5,306 nt of DNA from Deltaproteobacteria bacterium (GTDB lineage: Bacteria > JAUYMQ01): positions 1-5,306 of the forward strand of contig JAUYMQ010000243.1 of the NCBI GenBank assembly GCA_030698575.1, written 5' to 3'. The notes under the pieces are model-generated. The model made no database searches and was not told the DNA's origin. It saw only the letters and a program-made list of their open reading frames with translations. Below, piece by piece: positions 281 through 5,306 of this stretch. The position numbers and the translations under genes are program-made. Position 1 is the first letter of the stretch, and each line of letters begins with the position of its first letter.

Positions 281-597
281 GCGTACTGCCCGCTAGGGTA
301 CACCCGGCCGATGAAAAGGGGAACCTGGAGGCCTACAGCCCATCGGGCAGCGGCACCGCCACCAGAACCGCCACCGCGGGAACGGTGAGATACAGGTTAC
401 CACGCGAGCGATCCAGCGCGAACCTAGCGCCGCGCACGTGGGGCAGGATGACCCGCGCGCGGATCTCACCACCGCGCCCAACACGACGAGTACCGACGAA
501 TCGCTCCCATTACAAACGCCGAGCGGCGGGGCTGGTTCCTCGCCCCCGCCGCTCCGCGTGGCTGACGTCAAGAGTGAGCGCGCTGTGCACTACCGCC
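281..597. other. Intergenic stretch between RND permease and cysteine-rich peptide gene
   Basis: I see no convincing gene here. The one clear structure is the hairpin at 521-554. On the minus strand a stop-free frame of about 58 codons (333-509) has no start codon and no family I recognise. It could be the 3' remnant of a lost gene such as the missing end of the membrane-fusion protein, but nothing in it shows that. No convincing promoter for the permease is visible. Confidence 0.5.
521..554 (-). terminator. Candidate rho-independent terminator of the propeller/thioredoxin/peptide operon
   Basis: Two perfectly complementary 11-base arms, GAGCGGCGGGG and CCCCGCCGCTC (521-531 and 544-554), enclose a 12-base loop. 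The hairpin starts 44 bases after the peptide stop codon. On the minus strand it is followed by GGCGTTTGTAATG, so the T run is short, which is common in very GC-rich genomes. It would end the operon and insulate the downstream RND permease gene. Confidence 0.65.
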
Positions 598-801
598 CTA
601 TGGGAATGTGCAAAGGTAGCAGCAACCGGAGCCGCCTTGGCACTCGAATCCACACCAATCGTAGTGCGGTTCGCAGGCTACCTTCGCGGCCTGCGCCACG
701 CTTGGAGTGAAAGCAACGAGCGAGAATCCCAGAATGGCGCCGGCGCCGCCGACCAGCAGGCAGGTCACCAGCGAACGGACTTGCGTTTTGATGGCATTCA
801 T
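598..801 (-). CDS. Small secreted cysteine-rich peptide (six Cys in mature part)
   Basis: This 67-aa product matches no named family I recognise. It has a classic Sec-type leader: a basic start (MNAIKTQVR), a hydrophobic stretch at residues 11-31, and an AQA signal-peptidase site at 36-38. The predicted mature part is only 29 residues, AKVACEPHYDW then CGFECQGGSGCCYLCTFP. It holds cysteines 43, 50, 54, 60, 61 and 64 in the pattern C-x6-C-x3-C-x5-CC-x2-C, enough for three disulfides. I chose the ATG at 801 over the in-frame GTG at 810 because GGGAGGTGA lies 5 bases before it. The gene is last in an operon behind the thioredoxin-fold gene (95-base gap containing hairpins) and the propeller gene. 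A disulfide-stabilised bacteriocin-like, signalling or surface-displayed peptide are all possible. The reading frame is well supported; the function is unknown. Confidence 0.8.
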   Translation of the reverse strand: MNAIKTQVRSLVTCLLVGGAGAILGFSLVAFTPSVAQAAKVACEPHYDWCGFECQGGSGCCYLCTFP

Positions 802-806
802 AGCAC

Positions 807-815
807 TCACCTCCC
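807..815 (-). promoter_or_regulatory. Strong Shine-Dalgarno deciding the peptide start
   Basis: GGGAGGTGA sits 5 bases before the ATG at 801. It overlaps the alternative GTG at 808-810, so it rules that start out. The two upstream genes have much weaker sites, which suggests the peptide is made in excess over them. Confidence 0.75.
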
Positions 816-821
816 TTCAAG

Positions 822-862
822 GCACGGACACCCCGTGCTGGATAGCACGTCACATGCACGGC
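822..862 (-). promoter_or_regulatory. Mutually exclusive hairpins in the leader of the peptide gene
   Basis: Read on the minus strand, the segments are GCCGTGC (862-856), CGTGCT (849-844), AGCACGG (839-833, sharing bases with the next stem) and CCGTGC (827-822). The single AGCACGG element can pair with CGTGCT across a 4-base loop, with CCGTGC across a 5-base loop, or with the distal GCCGTGC. Only one pairing can exist at a time, and the last stem ends 6 bases before the Shine-Dalgarno sequence. This could be an mRNA-stability or processing element, or a simple switch of translation. The complementarity is plain; the regulatory role is inferred. Confidence 0.4.
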
Positions 863-896
863 ATACAGCGCGCTCTCTCACCGCCGCGACGCGTCG

Positions 897-1484
897 TTAG
901 TGGGCACTTTGGATGGTTTGCCGACAGCCACCCAAGACGTCGGACAAAACCAGTAGCTGCTGCGGGGATGGATTACTGGCTTCCACAGCGCCCGTCACGA
1001 GCACTACCCTAGACGCCGAGTCCACCAGTACCACCAGCGGGGTGGTGGCGCCCGCCAGGCCAACGTCCTCCAGCGCACTGATCGCGTGAACCGATCCAGG
1101 GAATCGATACCGCCCTGCGAAGCTGCTAACGGTGGCTGTATCCTTCCCGACGCCGAACACGGCAAGAGCGAGCGCACCAGGTCCGCCGCACTCCTCCGCC
1201 AGGCGCCGCCAGTACCCGAGTTGCTGGGCGGCACAGGCGGTGCAATCCACGCCCGAGAGAATCCACGCGGCGGCGCCGCGGCGCGGCGAGGTGCCGCCAA
1301 GGAGCGACCCCTTCCCACAGCACAGCTTCCCGCCGTCAGGAGTCGAGAGGATGCGACCCACGAGCCACCTTGCGCCGGACGGGCTAGTAGATCCGCCCCC
1401 ACGGTTGTGGCCCACGTACGCACCGGCGGCCCCCCCGGTCACCAAGATTATTCCCAACGCGACAGCATAGCTGCGTGCGTTCAT
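897..1484 (-). CDS. Membrane-anchored thioredoxin-fold protein (TlpA/ResA-like)
   Basis: This 195-aa protein is predicted to be anchored in the inner membrane with its catalytic domain in the periplasm. Residues 5-24 form an uncleaved-looking hydrophobic segment. The thioredoxin fold begins near residue 72 with beta strand AAAWILSGVD, then the CTAC motif (C81, C84) opening helix QQLGYWRRLAEEC. After the strand ALALAVFGVGKD comes the cis-proline loop TTP (P149) and strand LVVLVD, as expected for TlpA/ResA-type thiol-disulfide proteins. Additional cysteines are 55-56 (CC), 99 and 187. The start is the ATG at 1484, which overlaps the propeller stop as ATGA and has GGGGGTGGG upstream, so the two proteins are translationally coupled; an in-frame GTG at 1496 is a weaker choice. 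Next to a six-cysteine peptide, a role in making, breaking or reshuffling its disulfides is a reasonable inference, but the redox direction cannot be read from sequence. Confidence 0.82.
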   Translation of the reverse strand: MNARSYAVALGIILVTGGAAGAYVGHNRGGGSTSPSGARWLVGRILSTPDGGKLCCGKGSLLGGTSPRRGAAAWILSGVDCTACAAQQLGYWRRLAEECGGPGALALAVFGVGKDTATVSSFAGRYRFPGSVHAISALEDVGLAGATTPLVVLVDSASRVVLVTGAVEASNPSPQQLLVLSDVLGGCRQTIQSAH

Positions 1485-2584
1485 TGGCGAGCCCACCCCC
1501 GACAGACGATGACTGTATTAGCCGGCTCGTCCGCGGAGTTCAGAAAGACCACAGTGTCACCGCGAGAACGGACCGGCCGAAACGGGATTTCCTCGACGGA
1601 CACCAATCGCTTGCTCTCCCGGGAATAGAGGCCTAGGTAATAGTGGCGAGTGTCATCCACGAAGGTCTCCCAGCCCAGCAGCGCCGCTGACGAGTCGGGC
1701 ACCCCGACGAAGAACAAGTGGCTAAAGGATCTCGCCCACTGGTAGAAACTCCCCTGACCTGCGAATCGCGCGGGCGGCAAGACGGGTCGGCGATACGCCG
1801 CCGCTTGACCCTCCCAGGAGTCCACGAGTCTCCCATCGGGAGCATAGAACTGCACGCCGAGCGCGTACGGGACCACGACGGCGATGAATGAGCCTGTTGG
1901 ATCCGCCGCCAGGCTGACGTCGCGAACAAAGCGGATGCGAAACGTGGCTCTGCGGTCCTCGGGCGCGAAGCCCAGCGGCTGCTCGCCGGACTCAATGTTC
2001 ACCATCCGCGCCATGTGCGGGAACGCCGGCGCAACAGAGGACGCGGTGTGATCCAAGACGCCGAGGAGCACGGAAGCGTCGTCGAGTCTGCTCAAACGAG
2101 TTCCGCCGGAGAATCGTGGGCCATGGGGATCGCGAATCACCGTGCCGCTGGCCCCAAAAAGCACGATTCCCTTGTACCGATCGAGAACGAGCAACTGCCC
2201 CTCGCTCACCCACACGGCATCGATTGGATCTCGAAACTCACCCGGACCGCTGCCGGGTGCGCCGAATACACGCGTCGGCCGACCGAGGGTGTCGAACTGA
2301 AAAACCCGCTTTTCGATCGGATCGGCGATCGCGACGCCCCACCGGACGTCAAAGTCGATCGAGCGAATCGTTCCCACGACTGGAGAGTCCGACGGCAACC
2401 GGATCACGAGCGGCACGCGGCACTGCGCCCAGAAGCGGTCCAGGCCTCCAAGTGCCTCCTCTACCGGCGGCGGTACATACGCCGCGCCATCAGCACGTGC
2501 TTCACACGAGGCGCACGCTGCGGTCACCGCGAGCGCGAACAGACTGGCCGGCATGCGACGCCACGGGCAAGAGTTGGACGGCAC
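1481..2584 (-). CDS. Six-bladed beta-propeller protein, exported or lipid-anchored
   Basis: This 367-aa protein has an export signal: basic RRM at 9-11, hydrophobic residues 13-23 and cysteines 24 and 27 in an imperfect lipobox context (TAAC), so lipid anchoring is possible but not certain. The body reads as repeated four-stranded blades with NHL/6-bladed-propeller hallmarks. Examples are IADPIEKRVFQFDTLGRPTRVFG (quoted in part: RVFQFDTLGRPTRVFG, residues 93-108), the typical inter-blade turn GSGPGEFRDPIDAVWV (111-126), then LLVLDRYKGIVLF and VQFYAPDGRLVDSW (244-257). The length fits BF3164-like and related six-bladed propellers, which bind ligands rather than catalyse. The start is probably the GTG at 2584, which keeps the basic n-region; an ATG at 2554 would lose it. 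No good Shine-Dalgarno sequence precedes either. It is first in the operon and coupled to the thioredoxin-fold gene. A peptide- or partner-binding role is inferred from context. Confidence 0.82.
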   Translation of the reverse strand: MPSNSCPWRRMPASLFALAVTAACASCEARADGAAYVPPPVEEALGGLDRFWAQCRVPLVIRLPSDSPVVGTIRSIDFDVRWGVAIADPIEKRVFQFDTLGRPTRVFGAPGSGPGEFRDPIDAVWVSEGQLLVLDRYKGIVLFGASGTVIRDPHGPRFSGGTRLSRLDDASVLLGVLDHTASSVAPAFPHMARMVNIESGEQPLGFAPEDRRATFRIRFVRDVSLAADPTGSFIAVVVPYALGVQFYAPDGRLVDSWEGQAAAYRRPVLPPARFAGQGSFYQWARSFSHLFFVGVPDSSAALLGWETFVDDTRHYYLGLYSRESKRLVSVEEIPFRPVRSRGDTVVFLNSADEPANTVIVCRGWARQ

Positions 2585-3037: not shown

Positions 3038-3622
3038 ATGCATACGGTTCTTGACAAGGCTTCAAGTCTTGGGTTACTCGCCAGCGCTTTGCTGTCTGTC
3101 GCCGTGGTGGTGGTGACCCCGACCGTCGGCCTCGCTGCCACGTGCTCTATCACGTGCGAGAGGTGCACATTGGACCTGAACACGAGCATCACGACCTGCA
3201 CGAACTGTACGATCACTGCAGGTCCTGAGGGGCGGGACAACCGAAAGGAGGAGTTGTATGCGCAGCATCCGTTTGGCGCTGCCCGGTTTGCAGCACTAGT
3301 GCGGCAGCCGCGATCGCCTTCTCACCGTCACCTGCGCGGGCCGCGCGGCAGTGCTGGTGACAGTGTGACGAGTGGACGTGCAATTTATAAGCCGGCACTT
3401 GCACGTGCAAGAACTGCACTATTTTCCTGCCCCGCGGGGCCGGGGCAGACACGAGCTGCGAGTTTGCTTCCCGCACCGCCAGATCGAAGGGACGCGGGTC
3501 GAATCGCACGAGTACCGCGCCGCTGTCCACCCGATCGCCGGGCCGTACGATCACCGCATCGACCGTTCCCTGCGCCTCGCCCTTCAAACTCACTTGGCGC
3601 TCCGCCCGTACCTGGCCGGTAG
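3038..3622 (+). CDS. Secreted cysteine-rich peptide with read-through 3' extension
   Basis: The meaningful part is the first 60 residues (to about 3217). It has a leader with a hydrophobic core at residues 11-29 and a GLAA cleavage region at 31-34. The short mature part, TCSITCERC followed by TTCTNCTIT, has cysteines 36, 40, 43, 54 and 57 (C-x3-C-x2-C-x10-C-x2-C). No family name is known to me, but the C-terminal CxxCT motif is shared with the minus-strand peptide (598-801) and with the broken gene just downstream. The frame does not stop there. It continues through the next peptide's ribosome-binding site and coding region and then antisense to the membrane-fusion fragment, ending only at 3622, and that Arg/Pro/Ala-rich extension looks like non-coding translation. 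Either a stop was lost by a small indel shortly after 3217 or the true 3' end is hidden by a sequencing error. The start and leader are well supported; the 3' end is not. Confidence 0.62.
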   Translation: MHTVLDKASSLGLLASALLSVAVVVVTPTVGLAATCSITCERCTLDLNTSITTCTNCTITAGPEGRDNRKEELYAQHPFGAARFAALVRQPRSPSHRHLRGPRGSAGDSVTSGRAIYKPALARARTALFSCPAGPGQTRAASLLPAPPDRRDAGRIARVPRRCPPDRRAVRSPHRPFPAPRPSNSLGAPPVPGR

Positions 3623-4660: not shown

Positions 4661-5190
4661 TCACATCCGCTTGTACCTGGGACCGCTCCCACCCTCGCGC
4701 GGCGTCCAGCGGGGTCCGAGCACGTCGGTCGCCTTGCAATCCACGCAGTTCGGCGCATTGACCCGCAGGCCGCCTTCCACCGCTTCATAAACCCCCGCCG
4801 GGCACATGTGCGCGTAGAATCGCGCGACATCGGCCGAAACACCCTGGCCCACGACGAGATGGCTGGGAATCGTGTCCCGCGTCGCGTTCCCGGACTTGAA
4901 GGCCGCATCCACCTTGCTGAACGTTAGCCTACCATCCGGGGTGAATGGCGGTCCCGGGCAAGACGGGCGCGGGGCCTCGGCGTCGGCAGCATCCGATACT
5001 TCCCATTGGGAAACCGGCCGCCGGTGAGCGTCATCAGCGCCGCCTGCAGCCCGCCGAGGTAGAATCCGTCGCGGAACGCAAGCCGCATGTTGCGTGTCCG
5101 GTAGAGATCCGCAGCGATGTAGGATTCGTTCACCATGCGGTCATACTCGCCAAGCGCCGTCCCCGCCCCTTCCCCACCCTTCAGCGCCCG
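4661..5190 (-). pseudogene. Electron transfer flavoprotein-ubiquinone oxidoreductase, C-terminal remnant with frameshift
   Basis: ETF-QO passes electrons from ETF to the quinone pool using FAD and a 4Fe-4S cluster. The intact protein is about 550 residues; about 175 from the C-terminus remain. Upstream of 4984 the frame reads EYDRMVNESYIAADLYRTRN and DGFYLGGLQAALMTLTGG. One base is missing near 4984, after which the next frame continues DAEAPRP and TPDGRLTFSKVDAAFKSGNA, then MCPAGVYEAVEG, NAPNCVDCKATD and the terminal PREGGSGP, all characteristic of this family's ferredoxin-like end. The cluster cysteines CP, NC and DC are present. The fourth position of the mitochondrial pattern (C-x2-C-x2-C) is Thr, as I recall also being the case in some bacterial subfamilies. 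The 5' part is replaced at about 5190 by RND sequence in another frame, so no complete product is possible. Confidence 0.83.
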
Positions 5191-5192
5191 GC

Positions 5193-5306
5193 GTGCGGAT
5201 CGTGAGGACGGGGAGCGTGACGTCGGGCAGCAGGGAGACCGGGAGGCGGCCTAGGCTCACCGCGCCGAGGAGGACCAGGGCGAGTGGCGGCCACGGTCGT
5301 GACCGG
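5193..5306 (-). pseudogene. Second RND permease 5' fragment, broken
   Basis: Read on the minus strand from the right edge, the sequence gives RPVTTVAAT. After a 2-base deletion (between 5284 and 5285) the next frame gives LVLLGAVSLGRLPVSLLPDV and TLPVLTIRT, the same first helix and porter start as the permease at 1-280. Homology ends at about 5193, where ETF-QO sequence begins in a different frame. The start codon lies beyond the window. Because it is shifted and truncated it encodes no working pump. It also forms the right copy of the 114-116-base direct repeat. Confidence 0.83.

Follow-up and report, generated by a model that had tools for sequence, protein, structure and literature searches.

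Thioredoxin-like proteins of the TlpA/ResA type are mostly reductants, and TlpA keeps the cysteines of ScoI and CoxB reduced ahead of metal loading. In the MauD/MauE system a thioredoxin-like protein and MauE mature a small disulfide-rich exported subunit, the partner subunit of which is a propeller. According to the first-pass annotation, small exported peptides of the NVEALA family (PF14055) lie in Bacteroidota near six-bladed propellers of the BF3164/DUF5128 type. In one report, MauE is proposed to act in disulfide formation of the methylamine dehydrogenase small subunit, and MauE or MauD genes are described in Streptomyces beside precursors with at least eight cysteines (PMC7794033). Here we compared with these systems an operon from a stretch of 5,306 bp (the window), which is a complete contig (C601) of a metagenome-assembled genome.

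On the minus strand of the window the gene order is propeller, TlpA/ResA-like thioredoxin (Trx) and secreted peptide. The first-pass annotation had described three same-strand genes, an ATGA overlap between the propeller and Trx genes and a far stronger ribosome-binding site in front of the peptide, and the features below confirmed all of this.

1481..2584, minus strand: NHL/DUF5128-type beta-propeller, 367 aa from GTG 2584
2554, minus strand: alternative propeller start (ATG), 357 aa, giving a better leader, MPASLFALAVTAACASC
1481..1484, minus strand: ATGA shared by the propeller stop and the Trx start (direct reading)
897..1484, minus strand: TlpA/ResA-like Trx, 195 aa, with an N-terminal hydrophobic anchor
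807..815, minus strand: ribosome-binding site of the peptide, GGGAGGTGA (direct sequence reading)
598..801, minus strand: secreted peptide, 67 aa, ATG at 801, stop at 598-600
500..580, minus strand: hairpin GAGCGGCGGGG / CCCCGCCGCTC, 3' of the peptide; -42.9 kcal/mol, z -3.1

The peptide starts 95 nt past the Trx stop (897-899) and its start is preceded by GGGAGGTGAgtgctATG; no comparable site was seen at the Trx start or at either propeller start (GTG 2584 or ATG 2554). The hairpin at 500-580 possibly represents the end of the operon; it was absent from the list of the terminator scan and its T run is weak.

The leader of the peptide is signal-like and ends in SVAQA. The mature part, AKVACEPHYDWCGFECQGGSGCCYLCTFP, has 29 residues and six cysteines, in agreement with the earlier reading of a 67-aa peptide with an AQA site and six cysteines in a 29-residue mature part. 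When ORFs of this kind were sought (SD, signal-like leader and at least four cysteines within the last 32 residues), one was found in the window, whereas 300 dinucleotide-shuffled versions of it and 108 kb of sequence from the bin's other contigs yielded none. Since neither the shuffles nor the control contigs contained such an ORF, the peptide ORF is beyond chance expectation. The peptide gave no match in Pfam, NCBIfam, PHROGs or PADLOC, so that the suggestion of a distinct and possibly undescribed peptide family stands. No homolog of the exact peptide other than itself was detected in its own genome, its phylum (one genome), the genome contig collection or plasmids. Membership in the NVEALA family was not supported: PF14055 gave no match (none at E ≤ 1 in the Pfam scan), and the NVEALA motif is absent from the leader. 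At E ≤ 0.01, PF14055 was detected neither in the genome of the window nor in 385 others (386 sampled), with a positive Bacteroides ihuae control. A motif, C-[QWH]-[GI]-x-[GS]-x2-C, is common to the window peptide and five peptides of G009, G136, G493 and G297 (shuffle p 0.0023, post hoc), and this sharing is only suggestive.

The active site of the window Trx was located in alignments A1, A4 and A6 at D80-C81-T-A-C84 (CTAC), together with W92 and a putative cis-proline, P149. The DCxxC motif, the tryptophan and the proline are invariant across an 11-row family alignment that includes the window Trx, and the profile of these 11 rows matched structures of ResA-type and related periplasmic oxidoreductases. 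The window Trx by itself gave no match in the Pfam scan, and its homolog from G009 matched Redoxin. Judged from these profiles, the window protein is a thioredoxin-fold, TlpA/ResA-like protein whose CxxC and cis-proline align with the family. It forms a long branch and its place on the tree is uncertain, which counts against the maturation reading presented below. A search of viral contigs and plasmids with the window Trx found none, and AlphaFold run on single window sequences gave pLDDT values of 33-34 (33 for Trx). The window propeller matched solved NHL structures (E=2.8e-9 to 6d69), and the family profile did so with E-values down to 4e-28. Against PF17170 (DUF5128) it reached E=0.0021 and 17.7 bits, the cut-off being 22.9, and relatives from the G284 module exceeded this cut-off with 28.5 and 35.8 bits. 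It also aligned with the propellers of equivalent modules in other genomes, and the similarity to NHL and DUF5128 proteins suggests that it is six-bladed. A search of the genome contig collection with the window propeller found none. The bin encodes one other propeller (C561), which has cytochrome c as its gene neighbour and no relation to the module.

The relatives of the operon were found via profile searches with Trx only, and some profile seeds were picked once their neighbourhoods were known. A 16-row Trx profile (A4) matched 300 of 386 genomes at E ≤ 1e-6; because it was too broad, we relied on tighter Trx alignments. Ordinary cytochrome-c-biogenesis or other TlpA proteins among the Trx matches (G005, G153 and others) were used as controls. 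A secreted cysteine peptide was present in 10 of 12 propeller-linked Trx loci, compared with none of the 24 loci of generic TlpA proteins (Fisher p=2.6e-7), where a peptide was scored if it lay on the same strand within 2.2 kb and had a signal-like stretch with at least two cysteines behind it. This count omits the window, whose peptide was not flagged by the script, probably from overlapping spurious GC-rich ORFs; one doubtful ORF of L126 was excluded, and contig ends truncate both L084 and L126. The propeller-linked modules with a peptide span three phyla, and the co-occurrence across lineages that the first-pass annotation had named as support for its reading was therefore found. The refuting condition it had given, a peptide with no homologs beside such genes, does hold in the literal sense for the exact peptide: the class of peptide recurs there, with no detectable ortholog of the window peptide. 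Of the proposed comparable peptide system outside Bacteroidota, the recurring set of peptide, Trx and propeller in three phyla was upheld, and NVEALA membership was not supported.

The set of peptide, propeller and Trx was observed twice in G009 (L008 and L028). In G136 (L029) two paralogous peptides, one of them containing VVICHGWGFTCY, are followed by propeller and Trx, and in G493 (L077) a peptide containing VICHGNGFDC precedes the same pair. The peptides of G449, G430, G453, G512 and G514 have a GCxCP....CxC-like tail and are likewise followed by propeller and Trx. In L090 the next gene encodes a DUF5916-type protein, and in L080, L083 and L092 this position is taken by proteins of similar length. 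The set also occurs in G284, which belongs to another phylum. The loci of this genome are L126 and L127: one contig carries a propeller-Trx pair, and a second contig carries a MauE-Trx fusion (MauE part, PF07291, E=5e-15), a six-cysteine secreted peptide and two large genes, the first of which encodes a DUF5128 propeller. A 4-nt overlap of the propeller and Trx genes (ATGA or GTGA) was seen in nine loci, namely the window, L008, L029, L077, L083, L084, L090, L092 and L126. Both the number of cysteines (2 to 9) and their spacing vary widely among the peptides of the relatives, and none of the peptides scanned reached a Pfam or NCBIfam cut-off. Some modules have long regulators nearby, as judged from sequence (TPR-plus-sigma54-type in L029 and L033, response-regulator type in L028), and L082 (G460:C15) contains a tandem of three thioredoxin-family paralogs.

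The pairing of Trx with peptides was not restricted to propeller-linked loci. In the phylum of G009 and G297 (132 genomes) a second Trx lineage lies directly 5' of one to three peptides of 51-68 aa (L085, L087, L091, L095, L140, L142, L143 and L148), and the Trx and peptide genes overlap by 4 nt in L140 and L142. Most of these peptides share a conserved mature part, for example CCWVMVCTVNPPIICWEECRPCPP ('CCWVMVC..CWEEC', about 60 aa). The window peptide was not detectably a member of this family, with a profile score of -1.6 bits and 363 of 1000 shuffles scoring equally well. No propeller was found near the genes of the second lineage, and the Trx-peptide pairing can therefore do without one. 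The tree separates this lineage, with modest support, from the Trx of propeller-linked loci, and the pairing of TlpA-like proteins with cysteine-rich peptides thus seems to occur in at least two Trx lineages. In L148 (2-3945) one strand carries, in succession, Trx, a cysteine-rich peptide, an RND adaptor and an RND pump; the start of an acrB gene also follows the window operon, and the RND adjacency is possibly due to chance. The second active-site cysteine was lost in a Trx sub-branch (L033:4936-5565, SSCPSR; L080:3860-4474, TTCPVS; L081:3192-3800, ECPSLT; L079:1-636, SSCPYR). This loss in related Trx proteins argues against a strict redox role. Because the cysteine-lacking Trx of L033 and L081 still adjoin secreted peptides, binding without redox chemistry is possible.

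We propose, at about even odds, that the operon is one case of a recurring periplasmic module for peptide maturation, in which Trx would act on the disulfides of the peptide and the propeller would bind it. Gene set, coupling, recurrence and the active-site residues of the window Trx are direct findings, and the steps that follow are our interpretation of them. The peptide would leave the cytoplasm through the Sec pathway and lose its leader. The membrane-anchored Trx would then form, shuffle or selectively reduce the peptide disulfides via its DCxxC motif, a step to which the gene coupling and the MauE-Trx fusion point. The exported NHL propeller may bind the peptide as a scaffold, partner subunit or receptor, and this is the least certain step. 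The peptide would be made in excess of its maturase, which fits its strong ribosome-binding site. A putative redox link between Trx and peptide finds support in the MauE fusion and in the 4-nt overlaps of Trx and peptide genes. The recurrence of the set, the invariant DCxxC, tryptophan and proline, and the MauE or MauD genes reported next to cysteine-rich precursors in Streptomyces (PMC7794033) also speak for the module. The fusion in G284 is the strongest pointer to disulfide formation, because of the role proposed for MauE in the disulfides of the methylamine dehydrogenase small subunit. If this mechanism is true, a TlpA-type Trx with a gene-linked substrate of 29 residues would provide a minimal model of disulfide setting in small exported peptides, and the neighbouring Trx could serve as a handle on a reservoir of short secreted cysteine-rich peptides (precursors of about 50-100 aa). 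More tentatively, we consider a wider proposal, which we hold to be possible although somewhat doubtful: the peptides would be a new class of secreted cysteine-rich peptides across phyla, into which a dedicated DCxxC Trx, sometimes fused to MauE, installs disulfides, with a cognate NHL propeller that binds or displays them, as a disulfide-based counterpart of RiPP pathways.

The surroundings of the operon bear on how the peptide is to be regarded.

135-250 and 5193-5306: acrB-like 5' end as a direct repeat, 93% identical, near both contig ends
3213-4739, minus strand: truncated membrane-fusion protein joined to a helix-turn-helix regulator
4661-4912, minus strand: fragment of an ETF-ubiquinone oxidoreductase 4Fe-4S domain (PF05187, E=2.9e-10)
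3038..3440, plus strand: divergent second cluster of cysteine-rich secreted peptide frames with good SD sites (three-frame translation)

The acrB repeat and the joint between the truncated membrane-fusion protein and the regulator apparently reflect a rearranged or chimeric region. The contig was the strongest tetranucleotide outlier of the 22 bin contigs compared (r 0.59 against 0.73-0.95), and therefore it may be misbinned or foreign, which makes the Gemmatimonadota origin implied in the first-pass annotation uncertain. The divergent cluster is apparently decayed and would be related to the operon. Its frame at 3038 on the plus strand contains GLAATCSITCERCTLDLNTSITTCTNCTI with no stop soon after, and a second plus-strand frame, which follows the SD-like GAAAGGAGGAG, is a decayed copy with a frameshift and two stops (ARAARQCW*QCDEWTCNL*AGTCTCKNCTI). 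The truncated RND genes, the repeat at both contig ends and the decayed peptide frames, along with a composition unlike that of the bin and an exact peptide with no ortholog found, would fit a spurious or unrelated small ORF that came to lie beside a propeller-TlpA pair in a rearranged contig. We regard this explanation as very improbable, considering the strong SD, the complete signal-like leader, the six cysteines in 29 residues, the 0 of 300 shuffles and the recurrence of this gene association in 10 of 12 relatives.

Two further explanations accept the peptide as genuine and assign it another role. It could serve in metal binding or delivery, with Trx holding the cysteines in reduced form until the metal is loaded, in the manner of TlpA with ScoI and CoxB, and with the propeller as acceptor or partner. 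The mostly reductant nature of TlpA/ResA-type proteins and the presence of CxC and CC pairs in the peptides speak for this role. We nevertheless judge it rather unlikely: between 2 and 9 cysteines at variable spacing among the relatives would be unusual in a fixed metal site, no gene for metal handling was seen adjoining the module, and the MauE fusion indicates disulfide formation. The peptides could also be secreted toxins, bacteriocins or signals of a RiPP-like or defensin-like kind, with Trx maturing their disulfides and the propeller conferring immunity or acting as a receptor. They are small, paralogous, cysteine-rich and secreted, with up to three per locus, and cysteine-rich precursors linked to MauE/MauD are listed as RiPP candidates in PMC7794033. 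In L148 Trx and peptide are succeeded by an RND adaptor and pump, and the window operon has RND fragments on both sides; however, RND operons are common and this adjacency may be chance. The module has no exporter, leader peptidase or modifying enzyme of its own (window scans: none), and the mature part of the CCWVMVC branch is strongly conserved, not variable. A toxin or signal is clearly improbable in our estimation.

Trx and propeller are of known kinds, and their combination with short cysteine-rich peptides across phyla would be a variant not described in the open-access literature searched, where no description of the module was found. Like TlpA, ResA and CcmG, the window Trx has the fold by profile, CxxC, the cis-proline and an N-terminal anchor; it differs from them in having DCxxC where they have WCxxC and in being linked to a propeller and a peptide instead of lying in a locus for cytochrome or copper-site assembly. 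The NVEALA peptides differ from the window peptide, which has neither a PF14055 match nor their motif. NHLRC2 likewise combines a Trx-like domain and an NHL propeller, which is six-bladed and fused to it (PMC6107167). In contrast to the module, NHLRC2 is a single polypeptide with a CCINC motif, showed no oxidoreductase activity in an insulin assay, and has no small peptide and no conserved operon (PMC6107167). In the predicted decRiPPter clusters of Streptomyces, redox genes (MauE/MauD) adjoin a precursor with at least eight cysteines; these clusters, compared here by description, are predictions only, belong to another phylum, and are presented in the available excerpt with no mention of a propeller (PMC7794033). 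MauE was absent from the Pfam scans of the window proteins and was seen in G284 only, with no other mau genes noticed. The window propeller is NHL-type and the mature peptide has 29 residues and is unrelated in sequence as far as tested, which sets the operon apart from MauD/MauE, and the likeness to that system lies in the Trx of the module being fused to MauE in G284.
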